Source: Mycolicibacterium aubagnense (lineage in GTDB: Bacteria > Actinomycetota > Actinomycetes > Mycobacteriales > Mycobacteriaceae). Taken from it: a stretch of 64,000 bases of DNA. A model generated the notes under the pieces. It was not told the origin of the DNA. It searched no databases and saw only the letters and a program-made list of their open reading frames with translations. Below, in pieces: positions 47,507-56,504 of the stretch. The translations under genes were made by a program, and so were the position numbers. How positions within the stretch are numbered: position 1 is the first letter of the stretch; the number at the start of each line of letters is the position of its first letter. The stretch covers positions 3,286,001-3,350,000 of the forward strand of contig NZ_AP022577.1 of assembly GCF_010730955.1 (NCBI RefSeq), written 5' to 3'.

Positions 47507-49168
47507 ATGCATTGGGGCATGACGGCGTGGCTGCAACTCGCCACCATCGTTGCGATCCTGGCAGTGCTGCACGTGCCGTTGGGCAACTACATGGCATCCG
47601 TCTACTCCGGCGAAAAGCATTGGCGTGCTGAGCGATTGATCTATCGAATAGCCGGCGTAGAGCCGGATCGCGAGCAGCATTGGGTCTGGTATGCGGCTTC
47701 GGTGCTCGCGTTTTCGGTGGTCAGCGTGGCCGTGCTGTTCGGTCTACTGATGCTGCAGGCCCAGCTGCCCGCACCCTGGGGTGCACAGGGAATGACCCCA
47801 CTGCTCGCGCTGAACACGGCAGTCAGCTTCGTCACCAACACCAGTTGGCAGAACTACGCGGGCGAGTCGAGTCTCGGTCACGTCGGCCTCACCGTTGGCC
47901 TGGGTGTGCAGGCGTTCGCCAGCTCCGCGGTCGGCATGGCGGTGGCCATCGCGCTGATTCGCGGCATCGTGCGCCGTCAGACCGTCGAACTCGGCAACTT
48001 CTGGGTGGACTTGGTCCGCGGCATCATCCGAATCCTCATCCCGATGGCGGTTCTCATCGCGGTCCTGCTCACCGCGCTCGGCGTGCTGGAGACTTTCGGC
48101 GCCGCGCAGTCGATCGGCACCCTGGCCGGCGGATCACAGACCTTGCCGACAGCACCGGTCGCGTCGTGGGAGTCCATCAAACTGATGTCCGGCGACGGCG
48201 GTGGTGCCTTCAACGCCAACAGTGCGCACCCGTTCGAGAACCCGACACCGCTGACCAACGTCATCGAGATCGTGACCATGGCCGTCATCCCGGTATCGCT
48301 GGTCCGCACCTATGGCGTCATGATCGGCGACCGGCGTCAAGGCTGGGCGTTGCTGGCCGTGGTCGTCGTCCTGTTCGGCTTGGGCACGGCCGCCGTCGGG
48401 ATGTCGGAAGCGATGCCGCACGGCACCGTCACGAGCGCGGTCGGTGCGGCGTTGGAAGGCAAAGAGGTTCGGTTCGGGATACCCGGAAGCGCGCAGTTCG
48501 GCCAGGTTGCCACCGCTACCGCAGACGGCGCGGCGAACTCGTCGTACGACAGTTTCACCAGTGTCGGCGGTGGGGTACTGATGGCCAATATGATGCTGGG
48601 CGAGATCAGCCCTGGCGGTACCGGCAGCGGACTATACGGTTTGGTTGTCATCGCGCTGCTCGCCGTGTTCCTCGGTGGTCTGATGATCGGCCGGACACCG
48701 GAATATCTGGGCAAGCGGGTCAGCGCCCGCGAGATGAAGTTGGTCAGCCTGGCGGTGCTCACCCCGCCGGTGGCGGTATTGACCGGCGTCGCGATCGCCA
48801 TGGCGCTGCCGGCCGGTGCCAGGGCCGCGACCAACTCCGGCCCGCACGGGCTATCCGAAGTGTTGTACGCGTTCACCAGTTGCGTCGCGGGTAACGGCAG
48901 CGCGTTCGGCGGATTCAGCGGTAACACAACAGGATTCAACATCGGACTGGCCGTGGCGATGATCATCGGCCGGTACGTGCCGATGATCCTGGTGATCTCC
49001 CTGGCTGCCAGCTTCGCCGGTCAGCGTTCCGGGGTGGTCACCGACGGCACTCTGCGCACTCACGAACCGTCGTTCGTCGGGCTGATGATCGGTGCCGCCC
49101 TGATCGTGGTCGGGCTGGAGTACCTACCGGCACTCGCGTTGGGCCCCATCGCCGAACGACTGTCTTAG
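47507..49168 (+). CDS. kdpA: Orphan KdpA-like potassium-translocating subunit
   Basis: 553 aa, about ten membrane spans, KdpA length. Seen: TNTSWQNYAGE (filter 1), SGDGGGAFNANSAHPFENPTP (filter 2; most KdpA have GTNGGGFFN), SVGGGVLMANMMLGE (filter 3) and SCVAGNGSAFGGF (filter 4; most have AANNNGSAFAGL). MIGRTPEYLGK and LALGPIAERLS are family-typical. kdpB and kdpC are not encoded: the next gene is convergent and overlaps by 4 bp. KdpA is normally the K+ channel-like part of the KdpFABC ATPase. Alone and with altered filters, its role is open. Confidence 0.88.
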   Translation: MHWGMTAWLQLATIVAILAVLHVPLGNYMASVYSGEKHWRAERLIYRIAGVEPDREQHWVWYAASVLAFSVVSVAVLFGLLMLQAQLPAPWGAQGMTPLLALNTAVSFVTNTSWQNYAGESSLGHVGLTVGLGVQAFASSAVGMAVAIALIRGIVRRQTVELGNFWVDLVRGIIRILIPMAVLIAVLLTALGVLETFGAAQSIGTLAGGSQTLPTAPVASWESIKLMSGDGGGAFNANSAHPFENPTPLTNVIEIVTMAVIPVSLVRTYGVMIGDRRQGWALLAVVVVLFGLGTAAVGMSEAMPHGTVTSAVGAALEGKEVRFGIPGSAQFGQVATATADGAANSSYDSFTSVGGGVLMANMMLGEISPGGTGSGLYGLVVIALLAVFLGGLMIGRTPEYLGKRVSAREMKLVSLAVLTPPVAVLTGVAIAMALPAGARAATNSGPHGLSEVLYAFTSCVAGNGSAFGGFSGNTTGFNIGLAVAMIIGRYVPMILVISLAASFAGQRSGVVTDGTLRTHEPSFVGLMIGAALIVVGLEYLPALALGPIAERLS

Positions 49169-49917
49169 CTGGCTGTCGGTGCGCGGAGGTCGGGCATTGC
49201 AGTCGCATCGATCGACCGTGCCAATGCCACAAAAGGCGCCCGCTGAACCGCCTCCGTGGTGCCCGGCGCCTCCGGATGCCATTGCACCGCAAGCACCCAG
49301 CCATCGACGGCCTCGAACGACTCGATCAGTCCGTCAGGCGCATGCCCCGTCGCCTTCAGCCCAACGCCGAGCGATGCGATGCCCTGGTGGTGAGCCGATG
49401 CGACGACGATCTGCTCAGAGTTGTGTGCGGCACGAACGCGACTACCGGCCGCAAGGTCGACCGAATGCCATCCGAACGTCTCGTCGGCAGTCGCGCTCTG
49501 GTGCGGGACTTCGCCTGGAACCAGGTCGATCTGGAGATCACCGCCCCGCGACACGTTCAGTACCTGCGCGCCGCGACAGATACCGAGCACCGGCAGGCCG
49601 GCGTCCTGTGCCCGCGCCGCCAAGATGAAGTCGAGGTCGTCTTGCGCGTCGTTGACGTCGTACACCGCCCCGGTAGCGCCCTGCCCATAGCGCTGCGGGT
49701 TGATGTCGCCGCCGCCGGGCAGCACGAGTCCGCCGACGTCGGACAGCGCGACGAACGGGTCGTCGACCAGCAGCGGCGTCAGGCCGGCCTCGACGACCAA
49801 TTCGACAATCCGGTCGAAGAGTTCATTCGCCGCGATGACTCGTGGGTCGTCGCCGACCGAAAATCGCCGCGGCACGACGACAGCAGGTGCGGCCACTATC
49901 AGGCCCTTCCTCTCCAC
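49165..49917 (-). CDS. Gamma-glutamyl-amide hydrolase, PuuD-like (peptidase C26)
   Basis: 250 aa class I glutamine-amidotransferase fold, free-standing. LPVLGICRGAQVLNV gives nucleophile Cys114, and AVQWHPE gives His214 and Glu216. GGLVLPGGGDINPQRYG is the PuuD-type opening. It cleaves gamma-glutamyl amides such as gamma-glutamyl-GABA. It is last in a five-gene operon, 6 bp after the DszC-like gene, where it would release the product after upstream gamma-glutamylation and oxidation (inference). Confidence 0.87.
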   Translation of the reverse strand: MERKGLIVAAPAVVVPRRFSVGDDPRVIAANELFDRIVELVVEAGLTPLLVDDPFVALSDVGGLVLPGGGDINPQRYGQGATGAVYDVNDAQDDLDFILAARAQDAGLPVLGICRGAQVLNVSRGGDLQIDLVPGEVPHQSATADETFGWHSVDLAAGSRVRAAHNSEQIVVASAHHQGIASLGVGLKATGHAPDGLIESFEAVDGWVLAVQWHPEAPGTTEAVQRAPFVALARSIDATAMPDLRAPTAS

Positions 49918-49923
49918 GCAGGT

Positions 49924-51123
49924 CTAGAAGTATCCGGAGTTGGGCGGAAGGGCGCCGTTGACCACGAAGTCCCCAGTCGCCCAGGCTTTGTACGCTAGCG
50001 GATTGTGACTGGCGATGGTTCGCGCGTTACGCCAATGCCGATCGAGATTCAGTGTTCGCGCGGTCGCCGACGCGCCACCGGTGTCGAACAACCGCTGTGT
50101 GGCGTCGAGGGTGAGTCGCTCGGCGACGAGTTGGGCCTTCGCCACCTCGATCGCGGCGGCACCGATGGCCTGCTGGTCGTCGATCTGGCCGGAATTCACC
50201 ACATGATCCAGTGCCGCTGCGGCGCCGAGGGTGACCGCGGTGGCGGTCGACGTCCAGGCGGCGATCTCCCCCACCGCCTGCAGAATGAACGGATCCTGGG
50301 TAGCGGAGGGGGTCAACGCGTGTGCCGCGGGACGCGCCTTGTTCTGGACGAACCAGATGGCATCCCGCAAGGCGCCCTTGGCAATTCCCACTGCCACGGC
50401 GGTGAGATAGAGCTGCAGGAACGTCTGGCTGTGCGCGAGCCGGTGGTCCACAGGGACCAGCGACACCTCGTCTTCGTGGACCGGCACCGCATCGAAAGTC
50501 GTTGCACCGCTTGCGGTCAGTCGCTGCCCGAAGCCGTCCCAGTCGTCGAACAACGTCACACCCTGCCGGTCGGCAGGAATGATGACGTGTACTTCGCGGC
50601 CATCTTCCCGTTCCGCCGAGACGGCGATCAAGTCGGCGTAGAGGGTTCCGGTCGAGTAGAACTTCTTGCCGTCCAGCCGGTATCGGCCGTCGCCGATGGA
50701 ACGCAATGTAGTGCCGATGGCCGCCGGGGATGCACCCACGGCTTCGGTGATCGCGTTTCCCACGATCTTTCCGCTGAGGACATCGGGGAACCAGCGGGCC
50801 CGCAGAGCGTCGTCGCCCCGGTTGCCCAGAAGCCGTTCCACGAACCCGAAGTGGGCGCGGAGCGCCTGGGCCACGTTGGAGCTGGCCTGCGCGATGTCGA
50901 TCACGGTCTCGATGACATCGACGATGGAACCGCCTGGGCCGCCGTGTTCCCGGGGGATCCGCAGGGCGAGCACACCGGTGTCGGAGATCGCGCGAATCGC
51001 CTCGTGGTGCAACGTGCGGGTCAGTTCATATTGGGCATCGTGCTCGCCGAGAGTTTCGACGACCGACTGCAACAGCGCCCGCCGGTCGGCGACGGACCCT
51101 ACCGGCAACGTCGTAATGGTCAT
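49924..51123 (-). CDS. DszC/SfnB-like flavin monooxygenase (acyl-CoA dehydrogenase fold)
   Basis: 399 aa. Acyl-CoA dehydrogenase fold but with DszC-type ending NLDRHWRNARTIASHNPLAYKAWATGDFVVNG, the hallmark of FMN-dependent sulfur monooxygenases (DszC, SfnB/SfnC relatives). The catalytic Glu motif of acyl-CoA dehydrogenases is absent. LRIPREHGGPGGS and DGRYRLDGKKFYSTGTLYADLIAV are the N-terminal and middle blocks. It would use reduced flavin and O2 to oxidise S or N. No dedicated reductase is nearby. It lies 18 bp after the luciferase-like gene. Confidence 0.85.
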   Translation of the reverse strand: MTITTLPVGSVADRRALLQSVVETLGEHDAQYELTRTLHHEAIRAISDTGVLALRIPREHGGPGGSIVDVIETVIDIAQASSNVAQALRAHFGFVERLLGNRGDDALRARWFPDVLSGKIVGNAITEAVGASPAAIGTTLRSIGDGRYRLDGKKFYSTGTLYADLIAVSAEREDGREVHVIIPADRQGVTLFDDWDGFGQRLTASGATTFDAVPVHEDEVSLVPVDHRLAHSQTFLQLYLTAVAVGIAKGALRDAIWFVQNKARPAAHALTPSATQDPFILQAVGEIAAWTSTATAVTLGAAAALDHVVNSGQIDDQQAIGAAAIEVAKAQLVAERLTLDATQRLFDTGGASATARTLNLDRHWRNARTIASHNPLAYKAWATGDFVVNGALPPNSGYF

Positions 51124-51141
51124 AGGATTTCCTTTCTCAGC

Positions 51142-52179
51142 TCATCGGAACAGGGGCATGATGTGCGTCGCGAACCGTTCCATCTCGGTTTCCAGCGGCT
51201 GGAACTGCAACATGAACAGGTCGATGCCGAGGTCGGCGAATGTCGTGATCCGTTCGGCCACCTGCTCATAACTTCCGATGAGACCGGCGAGAGTGCCGCC
51301 GTTGGTGCCCACGCGCGCGACACCCTCGTGCACCTTGAACATCGCGGTTGCGGGATCGGCTCCCACCGTGCGGTCCCGTTGTCCCGAACCGTCGACCAGG
51401 CCCTGCAGGTATTCGAATTCGCGCTGCGCTTCTTCCGGTGACTCACGGGCGATGACGAACGCTGACAACCCGAACTGCAAGGGCTCCAGCTTGTTCCGCT
51501 CCCGGCGCCGCATGTCGTCGATGATGTCCGCGGCATCCTGCGGCGGCCGTCCATTCAAGAAGAACACGTCGGCCTGCGCTGCAGCCAGGGCGCGCGCCGC
51601 TTCCGATTCACCGCCGAGGTACACGCGCGGTGTGCGGTCGAGAGCCGGCCGCAGCTGAGCGCCGGCCGCGACGGCCCCGTCCAGCCCGGACTCGATGGCA
51701 TCGCCACGCCACAGCCGACCGACGACGTCAAGCCACTCCCGGGAGTACTCGTATCGATCACCATGGGTGACGTCTCCGAGGCCGATCGCCTCCAGCTCGG
51801 GCAGAAACCAACCGCTGACGAGGTTGATCGCCACCCGGTCGGCAGCGATCTGTTCAATGTTGGCAACCGTTTTCGCGAAGACCAGCGGATTGAACAGCAA
51901 CGGCTTGATCGCGCCGATCAACTCGACGCGGCTGGTGGCCTCCGCCAATCCGGCCAGCGTCGACCAGGTTTCCAGTACGTCGTGTTCGGCGCCGCCAGGA
52001 TGTAGGACATGTTGAGCCACCAACGTCGAATCGAAGCCCAGCTCCTCCGCACGAACGATGAGATCGCGCGTCCGGCGGTAGCTGGCGTCCGGAATCTCCA
52101 CGGGATGCGTTCTGGCGCCCCATGTTCCGTAGACGGGTGCCCATACCCCGAATCGGGGCGCGGTCACAGTGACAGTCAT
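51142..52179 (-). CDS. Luciferase-like FMNH2-dependent monooxygenase (SsuD/SfnG-like)
   Basis: 345 aa LLM-class TIM barrel. RFGVWAPVYGTWGARTHP, then RTRDLIVRAEELGFDSTLVAQHVL, LFNPLVFAKTVANIEQIAADRVAINLVSGWFLPELEAIGL and VYLGGESEAARALAA follow the alkanesulfonate/dimethylsulfone monooxygenase pattern. It probably cleaves a C-S (or C-N) bond using FMNH2. The ATG overlaps the stop of the glutamine-synthetase-like gene (4 bp), so the enzymes are translationally coupled and probably share a pathway. It is not an ssuD duplicate: the two differ widely. Confidence 0.86.
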   Translation of the reverse strand: MTVTVTAPRFGVWAPVYGTWGARTHPVEIPDASYRRTRDLIVRAEELGFDSTLVAQHVLHPGGAEHDVLETWSTLAGLAEATSRVELIGAIKPLLFNPLVFAKTVANIEQIAADRVAINLVSGWFLPELEAIGLGDVTHGDRYEYSREWLDVVGRLWRGDAIESGLDGAVAAGAQLRPALDRTPRVYLGGESEAARALAAAQADVFFLNGRPPQDAADIIDDMRRRERNKLEPLQFGLSAFVIARESPEEAQREFEYLQGLVDGSGQRDRTVGADPATAMFKVHEGVARVGTNGGTLAGLIGSYEQVAERITTFADLGIDLFMLQFQPLETEMERFATHIMPLFR

Positions 52180-53513
52180 GAGTTCTCCAGGTAGCGCCGA
52201 AATTCCCAGTCGGTGACCGCACTGGAGTATTCATCCCACTCGCTCTGTGCGATCTCGGCGAAGTCATGCACGGAGTCCGCGCCCAAGATGTCGACGATGG
52301 CGTCGTCGCTGCGCGCCAGCGCAATCGCGACACTGAGCGATTCCGGCAGCCGTACCCCGACGTCGTAGAGGTTACCGGTCTGCGGCTCTGTTGGGTTGCG
52401 TCTGGCTTCCAGACCGGCCACGACGGCGGCCAGCGCAGATGCGATGAGCCAGTAGGGGTTTGCGTCGGATGCGCCGGTGCGCAGCTCGATTCGCGTTGCC
52501 GCGGGTTTCGGCTCCAAGAGCGACCGGACGGCAGACGTCCGGTTGTCACGGCTCCATGTCAACGTTGCCGGGGCGAACGAACCGGGGACGTACCTGCGGT
52601 ACGCGTTGACCGAATGCGCCCCGAACAGCGTGATCGACGGCAGGTGCTCGAGGAGGCCGGCGATGGCATGGAGTCCGACCTGACTCTCGGTGCCGTCGGC
52701 GCCCGCAAGGACCGGCTCGCCGTCACGCCACAGCGAAATGTGCAGGTGCGCAGAACTTCCAGAGTGCTCCGAGAACGGCTTGGGCATGAACGTCGCCAAC
52801 TTGCCGTTGCGTCGGGCGATCTCCTTGACCGCGTACTTCAGCCGAGCACTGTCGTCGGCGGCATCGAGTGCCTCGCTGTAGACCAGGTTCGCTTCCACCT
52901 GCCCGGGACCGTATTCGGTGAGCAGGCCCTCCAGGGAGGTGAACTCACGCAACACCGAGTAGAGCTCGCTGAGCACCGGTTCAAGAGTGTTGGCGTTCTG
53001 CAGCGAGTAGGCGTGGACGTCGTCCTGGAAGATCGACCCGTCAGCATTGAGCAGGTAGAACTCGAACTCGGCGCCGACTTTGGCGGTGTACCCCAGGGCT
53101 TCCAGTCGCTCGATGACGCGCCTCAAGACGCCGCGGGGATCGAGCGGAGACGGTGTCCGGTCGTGATCGACGATGTCGGATATGACGTGTCCCACGCCGG
53201 GCCGCCACGGCAGCTCTCGGAACGTGCTCAGGTCGGGTACCGCGAAAGCGTCCGGATAGCCCGTGTTCCAGTTGGTCGACCGCAAACTTTCGATGACGCG
53301 CGCGTTGGAGTTCCACGCGAGCGCTCCATTGCAGAAGCCGAAGCCAGACGCTTCGGCGCGACTGCGGAATTGATCGGCGGGCACCCGCTTGCCCAGGGCA
53401 TGTCCGAACTGATCACTCCACGCCACCTCGACCTCGGTGATGGCTCCGGAGTCGAGCAGATCCCCAACACTCCTGTGCCGCTGGTCCGTCACGGCTTCAG
53501 TGGTCACCGACAT
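52176..53513 (-). CDS. Glutamine synthetase-like gamma-glutamyl-amine ligase
   Basis: 445 aa from ATG 53513, with GGAGAGGAG upstream; the longer frame overlaps the permease. Seen: KVGAEFEFYL (first metal Glu motif), EYGPGQVEANLVY, GSSAHLHISLW (catalytic His) and RTGASDANPYW. The length and missing adenylylation loop fit the PuuA/GlnA3/FluG group that ligates glutamate to amines rather than housekeeping GlnA. It sits second in the operon between an amine permease and two flavin monooxygenases, so it probably activates an imported amine as its gamma-glutamyl amide (inference). Confidence 0.87.
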   Translation of the reverse strand: MSVTTEAVTDQRHRSVGDLLDSGAITEVEVAWSDQFGHALGKRVPADQFRSRAEASGFGFCNGALAWNSNARVIESLRSTNWNTGYPDAFAVPDLSTFRELPWRPGVGHVISDIVDHDRTPSPLDPRGVLRRVIERLEALGYTAKVGAEFEFYLLNADGSIFQDDVHAYSLQNANTLEPVLSELYSVLREFTSLEGLLTEYGPGQVEANLVYSEALDAADDSARLKYAVKEIARRNGKLATFMPKPFSEHSGSSAHLHISLWRDGEPVLAGADGTESQVGLHAIAGLLEHLPSITLFGAHSVNAYRRYVPGSFAPATLTWSRDNRTSAVRSLLEPKPAATRIELRTGASDANPYWLIASALAAVVAGLEARRNPTEPQTGNLYDVGVRLPESLSVAIALARSDDAIVDILGADSVHDFAEIAQSEWDEYSSAVTDWEFRRYLENS

Positions 53514-53514
53514 T

Positions 53515-54966
53515 TCAGCGCTCCTCTCCTGCCGATGTGAACGACTCTGTTCGGGCACGGCGGTAGCCCAGCACGGCACCGCCCACGAAACCCATTACCA
53601 GCACCAGGATTACGGCCAACGCCAGGCCTGACGATCCGCCGACCAGATCCTTGAGGTTCACCAGGATCAGGCCCAGGAATGCCACCAGCCCGGCCAGGCC
53701 GAGCGCCGGAGCCACCCGGACGCGCCACAACGAGTAGTGCCGCCGGTCCCGTGCGAAGAACGTCAGCACCGCCGCGCTCGTCAGCACCATCAGGGCGAGC
53801 ACTCCGACCGTGGTGATCCCCGACAGCCAGGTGTAGAACTCCGTGCTCGGGTCGAGCCGCGCAACCGTGGCGACACCGACGACCGCGAGGATCAGTGCCG
53901 ACAGCGCCAGCGATGCGATGTGCGGCGAGCCGTGGCGGGTGTGTGGCCGTCCGAAGGCGGCGGGCAGCACACCCCGGCCGGACAGCGCGAACAGGTACCG
54001 GGACACCACGTTGTGGAATGACAGGATGCACGCGAAGAGGCTGGTGACGAAAAGGACTTGAATGATGTCGGCTCCCACCACACCCAGGTAGCGCTGTGCG
54101 GTGTCGACCAGCATGGTCCCGCCCGAGTTCGTCGCGCGTTCAACGGCTTCGCGATCACCCCACGCCGAGATCAGTGCCCAGCTCGAGACCGTGTAGAAGA
54201 CGCCGATCACGGCCAGTGCGAGGTACGTCGCGTACGGGATGGTGCGGTCCGGATCGCGTGCCTCGTCGCGGAAGATGGCCGTCGCCTCGAAACCGAGGAA
54301 CGAGATGATCGCGAACAGCAACCCGATTCCTGGTGCCCCCGAAGTGATCTGGGTCGGGTTCACCAGCCCCGTCGACAATCCATGGTCGCCACCGCGCCCG
54401 ACGATAACCGCATCGAGGACGACGACGATGGCGATCTCGGCGACGAGCAGAACCGCGAGTACTCGACTGGACAGCTCGATGTTGCGGTAACCGAGGTAGG
54501 CGATCACCGCGAGCCCTGCCAGCGCCCACACCGGCCACGGCAACTGGGGTACGCCGACCAAGGCCAACAGGCCACCGAGCTGCGGACCGAGCAGGCCATA
54601 CACCGCGGCCTCCATCGAGGCGTACGTCAGGACCGCCACGAACGCGGCACCGATGGCCGCGCTGACCCCAAATCCTTGCTGCACATAAGAAAAGAAGGCC
54701 CCGGCCTCGCGGACGAAAGGCGTCATGGCGGTGAAGCCGATGGCGAACAGCAGGAGCACGACGGTGGCAATGACGAACGTCGCGGGGAACCCTGATCCAT
54801 TGCCGGTGGCGATGCCCAATGGCACCGGTCCGCCGATGACGCCCAACGGCGCCGCCGCGGCCAACACCATGAAGACGATGGCCGGGATCCCCAAATTGCC
54901 GCGGAGGCGCTGCGCGCCGGCCGGCGGCCCACCATCGGTGCGCGCCGCCGCATGTTCGACTGTCAT
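53515..54966 (-). CDS. APC-superfamily permease, first gene of gamma-glutamylation operon
   Basis: 483 aa, about 12 spans. LGIPAIVFMVLAAAAPLGVIGGPVPLG opening, FSYVQQGFGVSAAIGAAF, and ISFLGFEATAIFRDEARDPDRTIPYATY in the central loop are typical of the APA/PuuP-like branch. ATG 54966. The stop lies one base before the ligase start, so the unit is strictly co-translated. It likely imports the amine substrate for the operon. Divergent from the NlpA-like gene. Confidence 0.87.
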   Translation of the reverse strand: MTVEHAAARTDGGPPAGAQRLRGNLGIPAIVFMVLAAAAPLGVIGGPVPLGIATGNGSGFPATFVIATVVLLLFAIGFTAMTPFVREAGAFFSYVQQGFGVSAAIGAAFVAVLTYASMEAAVYGLLGPQLGGLLALVGVPQLPWPVWALAGLAVIAYLGYRNIELSSRVLAVLLVAEIAIVVVLDAVIVGRGGDHGLSTGLVNPTQITSGAPGIGLLFAIISFLGFEATAIFRDEARDPDRTIPYATYLALAVIGVFYTVSSWALISAWGDREAVERATNSGGTMLVDTAQRYLGVVGADIIQVLFVTSLFACILSFHNVVSRYLFALSGRGVLPAAFGRPHTRHGSPHIASLALSALILAVVGVATVARLDPSTEFYTWLSGITTVGVLALMVLTSAAVLTFFARDRRHYSLWRVRVAPALGLAGLVAFLGLILVNLKDLVGGSSGLALAVILVLVMGFVGGAVLGYRRARTESFTSAGEER

Positions 54967-55166
54967 GACGCCCCTTGTTGTTCGGTGAATGTTGTTGGAT
55001 ACAAAAACTATTGGGTGCGGTCGACGTGCTCCAGCGGGCAGGACACCGGCGCTGACAATGCGTCACATGCCGTAACACTCGGCGGAATTCAGTGCCCCAG
55101 ATTCGGCATCCGGTCGGTAGTCTGGGTGGCATGGCGCCGTGGGCGCATCAGCCAAAGGGGTTGTCA

Positions 55167-55913
55167 GTGGGGACCATTCGATCGATCCGCGGTACCGGCC
55201 GCGTCCTGCGCGTGGGTGCGACTCCGGTGCCGCACGCCGAGATCCTGGACCACGTCCGACCGGCGCTCGCGCGCGCCGGAATCGATCTGCATGTGGAGGT
55301 GTTCGACACGTTCGACGAACCGAACCACCAGCTGGTCGCCGGGACGATCGATGCGAACTTCTTTCAGTACCTGCCATTTCTCGAGGAGTTCAACAGCTCG
55401 TCGGCTCAGCATCTGGTCCCCGTCGCGCCGGTCCACATCGAGCCGTTCGCGCTCTACTCGGAATCGGTCGCCACTCTTGGTGCGGTACCGCATTACGCAC
55501 AGGTGGCGCTGCCCGGCGATCCGGCGAATGTCGGGCGCGCAATGCGCATCCTTCATGACCTGGGTCTGCTCACGCTGCGTGCGGGTGAGCTGTCCGCGCC
55601 CGGCGTCGACGCGGTCATCGACAACCCTAAACAGTTGCTGTTCAAGGAAATCGCCAGCGCACACCTGGCCGATGTCCTCGCGGACTTCGATCTGGTGTTC
55701 CTCTTCGGCAACTACGCCATGGATCGTCAGATCGACTTGCGCTCGGCGCTCTACTGCGATCACGCAAACCGCGACTATGCCGAGTATCTCGTCGCGCGTC
55801 AGGACAACCATCAGAGCGAACCAATCAGGCTGTTGGCCACGGCCTTACAGTCAGAATCCGTGCGCTCGTTCATCGCACGGTCGTACGGTGGTCTGGTGGT
55901 GCCCGCGTTCTGA
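55167..55913 (+). CDS. NlpA/MetQ-like protein lacking a signal peptide
   Basis: 248 aa from GTG 55167 (AAAGGGG six bases upstream). The sequence is a MetQ-type binding domain: VLRVGATPVPHAEILDHVRPALARAGIDLHVEVFDTFDEPNHQLVAGTIDANFFQYLPFLEEF, then APVHIEPFALYSES and AVIDNPKQLLFKEI. Normal MetQ has a signal and lipobox before this; here the domain begins about 18 residues in, with a basic, non-hydrophobic leader, so it should stay in the cytoplasm. ATG 55131 upstream adds no signal either. No ABC transporter genes adjoin. It may sense a ligand for the divergent operon (inference). Confidence 0.8.
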   Translation: MGTIRSIRGTGRVLRVGATPVPHAEILDHVRPALARAGIDLHVEVFDTFDEPNHQLVAGTIDANFFQYLPFLEEFNSSSAQHLVPVAPVHIEPFALYSESVATLGAVPHYAQVALPGDPANVGRAMRILHDLGLLTLRAGELSAPGVDAVIDNPKQLLFKEIASAHLADVLADFDLVFLFGNYAMDRQIDLRSALYCDHANRDYAEYLVARQDNHQSEPIRLLATALQSESVRSFIARSYGGLVVPAF

Positions 55914-55916
55914 CAG

Positions 55917-56504
55917 TCAGGCGGACCGGATCGGTCGCTGGTCCCGGAACCGCGTCGAGGGCTGCGGATCGAAGCGATAGCCCTTCCCACGGACCGTCGT
56001 CAGCGTCAGCGCATGGACGCCCAGCTTCACCCGGAGCCGTCGAACGTGGGTATCGATGGTCCGCGTCGAAGCGAAACCGGCGTCCCACACGTTTTCGATC
56101 AGCTCGTCTCGCGAAATGATCCGCCGCGGATGCTGCGCCAGGTACGCCAGCAATTCGAACTCTTTGTACGCCATCGCGATCGGGCGGCCATCGGCGATGA
56201 CCTGCCGGGTGGACCGGTCGATGACGAGTCCACCGATCGGCGTCGGCGGCGAGGTGCGTACCGGGCCGGGGGCGACCGCCGACTTATCCACCCTGGCGCC
56301 CGGCACCCGGTACGCCAGATACGCGCTGAACTCGTCCATCAGGGTCGTCACCTGAGCCAGCGCATCGCGGGAGGCGGCGGGCAGCTCCACCGTCAGCACC
56401 ACCTGCGATGCGCGGACACTGCGGCCCTGATACATCCACTCTCCCTTGTCGATCCGCAGTCCAGTGTTCGCGAGGAGGACGGCCGTGGACATCGTTAGCG
56501 TCAC
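55917..56504 (-). CDS. Winged-helix (OmpR/PhoB-type) regulator without receiver domain
   Basis: 195 aa. The C-terminal 95 residues are an OmpR-type DNA-binding domain: AMAYKEFELLAYLAQHPRRIISRDELIENVWDAGFASTRTIDTHVRRLRVKLG ... VRGKGYRFD. The N-terminal 95 residues show no receiver Asp pocket. They hold a short beta/alpha part (VVLTVELPAASRDALAQVTTLMDEFSAYL) and a Pro-rich linker. Regulation is therefore not by phosphorylation, but perhaps by partner or ligand. The stop is 4 bp from that of the NlpA-like gene (convergent). ATG 56492 is an alternative start. Confidence 0.83.
   Translation of the reverse strand: MTLTMSTAVLLANTGLRIDKGEWMYQGRSVRASQVVLTVELPAASRDALAQVTTLMDEFSAYLAYRVPGARVDKSAVAPGPVRTSPPTPIGGLVIDRSTRQVIADGRPIAMAYKEFELLAYLAQHPRRIISRDELIENVWDAGFASTRTIDTHVRRLRVKLGVHALTLTTVRGKGYRFDPQPSTRFRDQRPIRSA

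Follow-up and report, generated by a model that had tools for sequence, protein, structure and literature searches.

A probable gamma-glutamyl ligase and two flavin monooxygenases in one mycobacterial operon: a candidate route for drawing sulfur from small amines

A 64,000-nucleotide stretch of the Mycolicibacterium aubagnense genome (contig NZ_AP022577.1, positions 3,286,001 to 3,350,000; termed here the window) carries on its minus strand, from 54966 down to 49165, a compact operon that joins a glutamine synthetase (GS)-like ligase to two flavin monooxygenases. The operon probably serves to scavenge sulfur from a small organosulfur amine, by a pathway in which gamma-glutamyl capping would be combined with flavin-dependent S-oxidation and C–S cleavage.

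Gene order and its conservation

The operon starts with the gene of an APC-family amino acid permease (53515..54966, on the minus strand as are all five genes; PF00324, AA_permease, 70 bits), which is followed by that of the GS-like protein, likely a gamma-glutamyl-amine ligase (52176..53513; PF00120, Gln-synt_C, 296 bits). Then come an SfnG-like luciferase-like monooxygenase (LLM; a group C flavin monooxygenase of the luciferase fold, Bac_luciferase; 51142..52179; TIGR04021, 192 bits) and an SfnB-like group D flavin monooxygenase of the acyl-CoA dehydrogenase fold (ACAD; 49924..51123; TIGR04022, 312 bits). The last gene encodes a PuuD-like class I gamma-glutamyl hydrolase (Peptidase_C26; 49165..49917; PF07722, 143 bits) that carries GICRG and WHPE motifs. 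These open frames lie exactly where an earlier note on this DNA had placed them, with gaps of 1, −4, 18 and 6 bp; a possible alternative start of the hydrolase is the GTG at 49896, behind AGAGGAAGG, with which the last gap would be 27 bp. NCBIfam cut-offs are reached by none of the five proteins.

Conservation was followed in 34 loci including the window, which are a sample from at least 78 loci among the matches listed in the named genome scan. Ligase orthologues come from at least 25 named loci (L057–L081; 65–95% identity) and from 13 other genomes of a 148-genome set, where the ligase was cut at E 1e-190, the next match standing at 1e-75; duplicates were removed (L043–L047, equal to L067, L081, L069, L070 and L064, respectively). 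Some stretches extend less than 10 kb per side (e.g., L064 and L077), and gene calls outside the window were made with a simple hexamer caller, their starts being approximate. Permease, ligase, LLM and ACAD are contiguous and in the same order in 16 of the 34 loci, hence the arrangement is more than chance, and in six others the ligase, LLM and ACAD stand together without the permease. The hydrolase is present in three loci (the window, L057 and L058), and its relatives in the 148-genome set, the window's own aside, are 33–46% identical among the matches listed; the best one from the 147 genomes other than the window's reaches 41%. The conserved unit is a set of four genes and the fifth, the hydrolase, is a lineage-specific addition or retention, so on-site release of glutamate is not general. 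The earlier note had proposed to look for the five-gene order in other genomes: its first four genes do recur in that order, and the fifth mostly does not.

The ligase clade looks nearly confined to mycobacteria. It occurs in 2 of the 396 genomes of a phylum sample, Millisia brevis (L060) is the one clearly other named genus among L057–L081, and L078 is a metagenome-assembled genome classified to phylum only; the closest named record among the matches listed belongs to Mycolicibacterium llatzerense (ligase 95% identical). The wider family comprises 801 proteins at E≤1e-60, and the best 120 of these 801 share 67% identity or more with the ligase of the window and carry only names like "glutamine synthetase family protein". 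One GS-like gene that ranks among actinobacterial matches comes from L094, whose record bears the title Vibrio cholerae strain 35D; the contig may be contamination.

The layout bears on one alternative, namely that two modules share the operon, the ligase and permease serving amine nitrogen and the SfnG/SfnB-like pair an uncapped sulfone or sulfinate. Eight of the 34 loci, in which the ligase stands without LLM and ACAD, speak for it: five have ligase and permease alone (the order is reversed in L042, and the L039 ligase is broken by a stop) and three have no other operon gene adjoining the ligase (in L070 and L073 a permease relative, 57% identical, occurs at another place in the stretch). 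So does the occurrence of the monooxygenase pair without the ligase outside the genus, and a joint pathway is further weakened by four loci that hold ligase and ACAD and no intact LLM. Against two modules, LLM was found at E≤1e-50 in 8 of the 148 genomes with the ligase adjacent in all eight, and close ACAD orthologues (at least 56% identical) occur in 12 genomes of that set, 11 of which have the ligase. In the twelfth, G033 (L159, 8618-10084), a whole ACAD lies beside a C-terminal LLM fragment at a deletion-like scar, flanked by genes that match cysH and the sulfate-transport genes of L038 and L068. Since a difference in an LLM motif described below (NGRP or NGQP) also follows ligase linkage, the two-module explanation is regarded as quite improbable.

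Residues of the ligase and of the two flavin monooxygenases

An ordinary GS would have the same fold as the ligase, whose top NCBIfam score is indeed that of GlnA (250 bits), yet this is below the GlnA cut-off of 429; the PuuA model gives 212 bits (cut-off 650), and the nearest PDB entry by sequence is 5dm3. Alignment against E. coli GlnA (L158) and PuuA (L136) showed that Tyr179 of the ammonium site is replaced by Leu and Glu327 of the flap by Phe in 33 of 33 ligases, L039 being excluded for its in-frame stop. N264 is Ser in all 33, and E129, E131, E220, G265, H269, H271, R321, R339, R344, R355, E357 and R359 are kept throughout; E212 was gapped by the aligner, although a Glu is present when the stretch TEYGPGQVE is read by eye, and D50, in a poorly aligned region, is variable. 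The metal, ATP and most glutamate residues of GS are retained and the DGSS stretch is absent. In addition, the genome of the window holds a second GS (L001) that shows the residues of E. coli GlnA wherever active-site positions were compared. That the ligase is an ordinary glutamine synthetase is therefore scarcely credible, and the view of the earlier note that it is GS-like and not GlnA proper is borne out at the level of signature residues by the lost ammonium site. The residue pattern, with the GS core kept and the ammonium site altered, is that of GS-like gamma-glutamyl-amine ligases and suggests such a function. In the accessible text of PMC6529630, GlnA4 of the Streptomyces ethanolamine route is similar in having Phe at the E327 position and a changed Tyr179 position; that route differs in its amine and its oxidation genes.

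The best NCBIfam model of the LLM is SfnG (TIGR04021, 192 bits), under its cut-off of 383, and the SsuD model gives 130. The SsuD residues W197, R227, H229, Y332 and H334 are replaced in 22 of 22 ligase-linked LLMs. In MsuD, W195, R225 and R296 bind the sulfonate according to the accessible part of PMC8234197; the positions of the first two hold N and S in 22 of 22, and that of R296 falls in a gap in 22 of 22 and carries N in three ligase-linked rows that were realigned. Over six SsuD/MsuD positions the ligase-linked LLMs read N, S, N, F, Q and L/I and SfnG reads N, N, N, F, L and F, a pattern that makes the LLM SfnG-like and a plain alkanesulfonate monooxygenase unlikely. The SfnG half of its earlier description as SsuD/SfnG-like is thus retained, and the SsuD half fails at the active site.

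LLM relatives at E≤1e-60 were found in 9 of the 394 genomes of a class sample: four belong to the genus, the window's included, and five do not. In three outside genomes, all of one genus, the LLM (48–49% identical) is the middle gene of an SsuD-like – LLM – SfnB operon; two SfnB proteins scored from it (L191 and L192) reach 518 and 519, over the cut-off, and two SsuD-like proteins fall below that of SsuD. Since these SsuD-like neighbours keep both Arg and the LLM is without them, the LLM there does another step, in line with the SfnG – MsuC – SsuD route (PMC13352529). The fourth outside LLM (49%) has a sulfonate-type ATP-binding cassette (ABC) transporter and a flavoprotein as neighbours, and close to the fifth (33%) there are ABC ATPases and a further luciferase-fold gene; no GS-like gene was seen in the stretches read around these five homologues. 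An NGRP motif is present in 22 of 22 ligase-linked LLMs, with NGQP in the four homologues of 48–49% and HGGT in the fifth, and the Arg of NGRP may read the glutamyl carboxylate or a sulfur oxide.

Some side observations concern clusters with such enzymes. In L190 (4354-10106; G440) an LLM homologue is clustered with SsuA-like, ferredoxin-like and fumarate-reductase/aspartate-oxidase-type flavoprotein genes, perhaps a sulfonate-linked redox module, and a larger flavoprotein (PRK13800) stands next to an SsuA-type transporter in L046/L070, L071 and L079. In L046 (11135-14791) three further luciferase-fold genes, two of NtaA/DmoA type and one of MsnO8 type, lie beside a ligase without adjacent LLM or ACAD.

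For the ACAD the best NCBIfam model is SfnB (TIGR04022, 312 bits), under its cut-off of 431, followed at a distance by DszC (154 bits), and its nearest PDB entries are TdsC, 8cda and MsuC, with nitrososynthase 3mxl as a weak match. We take His92, Tyr96, Ser163 and His391 to be the catalytic positions of DszC/TdsC. In 25 of 25 ACAD sequences (the truncated L081 being excluded) His92 is Gln, Tyr96 is A, P or S, Ser163 is Thr and His391 is kept. What had been called a DszC-like flavoenzyme has the ACAD fold, a DszC match and one of these residues, and is closer to SfnB by score.

Sulfur genes around the cluster in relatives

The neighbourhood of the ligase was compared with controls by means of independent markers, namely 15 sulfur proteins of E. 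coli (Tau, Ssu and Cys; E≤1e-10). Random controls were 20-kb stretches drawn from four ligase-bearing genomes, of which 38 of 40 were used (one fell on the ligase locus itself and one overlapped another draw), and a second control consisted of 59 other GS-like loci, mostly of other genera, Streptomyces above all, in which mycobacterial markers might escape detection. Markers were found at 16 of 34 ligase loci vs. 1 of 38 random stretches (CysM) and 1 of 59 GS-like loci (TauD), with Fisher values of 8e-6 and 8e-8, respectively, which are overstated, as are those given below, since the loci and genomes are related; the counts were the same at E 1e-20. A first marker set, derived post hoc from the ligase loci themselves, agrees with this: it marked 15 of the 34 ligase loci and none of the 59 GS-like loci or the 38 random stretches. 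The cluster of L038 and of L041 is embedded in a sulfate-assimilation locus, where it is flanked on one side by a sulfate ABC transporter and on the opposite side by cysH, a chelatase-like gene and a gene of the sulfite/nitrite-reductase family. CysD-, CysN- and CysC-like matches are near in L067, a TauE-family gene abuts the ACAD tail to tail in L049, and an SsuA-type transporter is nearby in L070, L071 and L079.

A TauABC-type importer adjoins the cluster in 9 of 34 loci, which fall into two clades on the ligase tree with three changes of state. In three of them it lies upstream of the permease and in six it is divergent from the ligase, and no permease was found in the stretches of these six, as if TauABC and the permease replaced one another as importer. 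In the 148-genome set, TauA-like proteins (TIGR01729, E≤1e-30) occur in 13 of 14 ligase-bearing genomes vs. 21 of 134 others (Fisher 7e-9) and, within the genus, in 13 of 14 vs. 15 of 74 without the ligase (Fisher 3.6e-7). The taurine contacts Q30, E106, T132 and D205 of E. coli TauA have been mutagenised, and D205 is absent from SsuA, as given in the accessible part of PMC6906117. All four are kept in 29 of 29 mycobacterial TauA-like sequences, nine from beside the cluster, ten from elsewhere in ligase-bearing genomes and ten from ligase-free genomes; ten of the twelve TauA positions compared agree with the paper, and at the two that differ (84 and 109) the numbering is unsure. TauD gave no match in the 34 ligase stretches nor in 20 stretches around unlinked TauABC. 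As a genome-wide query E. coli TauD was discarded, because its matches in 81 of 148 genomes, mostly of about 30–47% identity, are too unspecific for true TauD. In L074 (7905-9785) a TauC-like permease and a TauA-like binding protein share one 626-aa frame, either a fusion or a sequencing error.

These surroundings have to be set against the possibility that the operon serves nitrogen scavenging from, or detoxification of, a sulfur-free amine, which the ligase would cap and the flavin enzymes would hydroxylate at C or N, as in the Puu, ethanolamine and isopropylamine routes. Some enzymes of the ACAD fold act on amines (the weakly matching nitrososynthase 3mxl), and the LLM is related to RutA, an LLM that cleaves a C–N bond; moreover, the ligase is accompanied by nothing but the permease in the five loci mentioned above, and no sulfur marker lies near the operon in the window itself. 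Yet relatives have the sulfur neighbourhood, TauABC is present where the permease is missing, LLM homologues stand with SsuD-like and SfnB genes, and no PuuB- or PuuC-like tblastn match was obtained in the 34 stretches at 1e-10. A nitrogen route is accordingly considered unlikely. The sulfur-type setting that had been proposed for the operon is supported by the relatives, and the reported lack of a Puu oxidase and aldehyde dehydrogenase is confirmed by this last search.

A predicted route for sulfur-containing amines

Gene order, protein families, the loss of the ammonium site and the sulfur neighbourhood of relatives are read directly from sequence, and the reactions, their order and the substrate can be deduced from them as follows. 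A small organosulfur amine would be imported by the permease, the likely importer here, or by TauABC in relatives, and the GS-like ligase would cap it as a gamma-glutamyl amide with ATP and glutamate; such a cap would hide the positive charge and keep a reactive amino-aldehyde from arising in free form. The SfnG-like LLM would then split carbon from sulfur with reduced flavin delivered by an unlinked reductase, and the SfnB-like ACAD would oxidise the sulfur before or after this step, so that together they would yield sulfinate, sulfonate or sulfite for assimilation. Glutamate would be freed by the PuuD-like hydrolase here and by an unlinked hydrolase in relatives. In the earlier interpretation, the ligase other than GS, the gene order of the first four genes, the sulfur setting and the missing Puu oxidation genes persist, and the hydrolase as a part of the unit and the SsuD-like LLM are given up.

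The likeliest substrate class comprises 2-aminoethyl sulfur oxides (taurine, hypotaurine or a sulfone relative), among which taurine itself is possible and not favoured. Gamma-Glutamyltaurine occurs naturally according to the accessible text of PMC6529630. A more specific proposal, which we hold tentatively and rather doubtfully, is TauD-independent desulfurisation of taurine or hypotaurine: the cap would make the aminosulfonate a substrate for the SfnG/SfnB-type pair, the Arg of NGRP would recognise the carboxylate of the glutamyl group or else the sulfonate, and the substrate would be sensed by a cytoplasmic MetQ-like protein and a winged-helix regulator encoded beside the operon.

Several observations argue against the sulfur pathway or its taurine version. 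The E. coli sulfur markers are absent near 18 of the 34 loci, the window's included, and one of the 16 matches (L042) is CysM alone, the generic family that also gave the random match. TauABC occurs in 15 of the 74 same-genus genomes that lack the ligase, and no TauA-like protein was found at E≤1e-30 in the window's own genome, the sole exception of the 14. None of the 34 genomes with a TauA match exceeds the TIGR01729 cut-off of 304, and Ser32 of the TauA pocket is Phe in 29 of 29 sequences, hence the importer may carry something other than taurine. The ACAD is without the DszC His92 and Tyr96. Above all, none of the six checked SsuD residues is found in the LLM, which makes a plain SsuD-like attack on gamma-glutamyl-taurine doubtful and, as far as residues can tell, is the main result against a simple desulfonation of this compound.

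Among known systems, the closest worked-out logic appears to be that of S-alkylcysteine salvage by CmoO/CmoJ in Bacillus, where, in the accessible part of PMC10863075, an acetyl cap is put on, two flavin monooxygenases oxidise S and cut C–S, and the cap is removed. The predicted pathway would likewise cap the amine first, use two flavin monooxygenases and remove the cap, whereas the cap would be gamma-glutamyl, added by a GS-like ligase, and the flavoenzymes are of SfnB/ACAD type and SfnG-like. With the SfnG – MsuC – SsuD route for dimethyl sulfone, as far as the accessible text of PMC13352529 and PMC8234197 goes, the operon shares an LLM with the SfnG pattern at most checked positions and an ACAD of the SfnB/MsuC group, but it is without SsuD, has a ligase and a permease, and its LLM and ACAD score under the SfnG and SfnB cut-offs. 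It resembles the Puu putrescine pathway of E. coli in the permease, the GS-like ligase, the PuuD-like hydrolase and the logic of the gamma-glutamyl cap, and differs from it in that no PuuB or PuuC match was found in the stretch, oxidation would be performed by flavin monooxygenases and the hydrolase is not conserved. Taurine use by TauABC–TauD has a parallel in the TauABC that adjoins the cluster in relatives and retains all four of the mutagenised taurine contacts, though without a TauD match in the ligase or unlinked TauABC stretches.

Gamma-glutamyl caps are known from nitrogen amines, and N-acetyl caps from sulfur amino acids. No description of a glutamyl-cap sulfur pathway was found in the titles and abstract openings of the literature searched, most subscription papers being outside its coverage. 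If the prediction is true, the joining of a glutamyl cap to SfnG/SfnB-type C–S chemistry would represent a novel means of obtaining sulfur from amines; it would also give a function to a ligase family otherwise named generically, and an assayable prediction on mycobacterial use of taurine-like compounds.

The MetQ-like gene (55092..55913, plus strand; PF03180, 207 bits), which encodes a solute-binding domain, is divergent to the permease gene, and the intergenic region between the permease ATG and the MetQ-like frame (54967..55091) is the likely promoter of both divergent units. Convergent with it is the gene of an OmpR-type winged-helix regulator without receiver domain (55917..56504, minus strand; PF00486, 80 bits). 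The MetQ-like gene adjoins the cluster in 10 of 34 loci, with the regulator next to it in the same ten, and a hydrophobic N-terminal stretch is absent in nine of these ten orthologues, L064 having one. A protein with no visible signal peptide that is paired with a regulator is possibly a cytoplasmic ligand sensor. It was also considered as a DszB-like desulfinase, DszB being, we presume, of the same general fold and acting through Cys27. This was rejected: no Cys is shared near the domain start, the commonest lying about 183 residues in, and the sequence matches methionine-binding proteins instead.

An Rfam search of the window and four loci found no family. At the other end of the operon a second, lone kdpA (window 47507-49168) overlaps the hydrolase gene with its end by 4 bp on the opposite strand, and the other kdpA of the genome adjoins the sole kdpB over its cut-off (C1:4393392-4397186).

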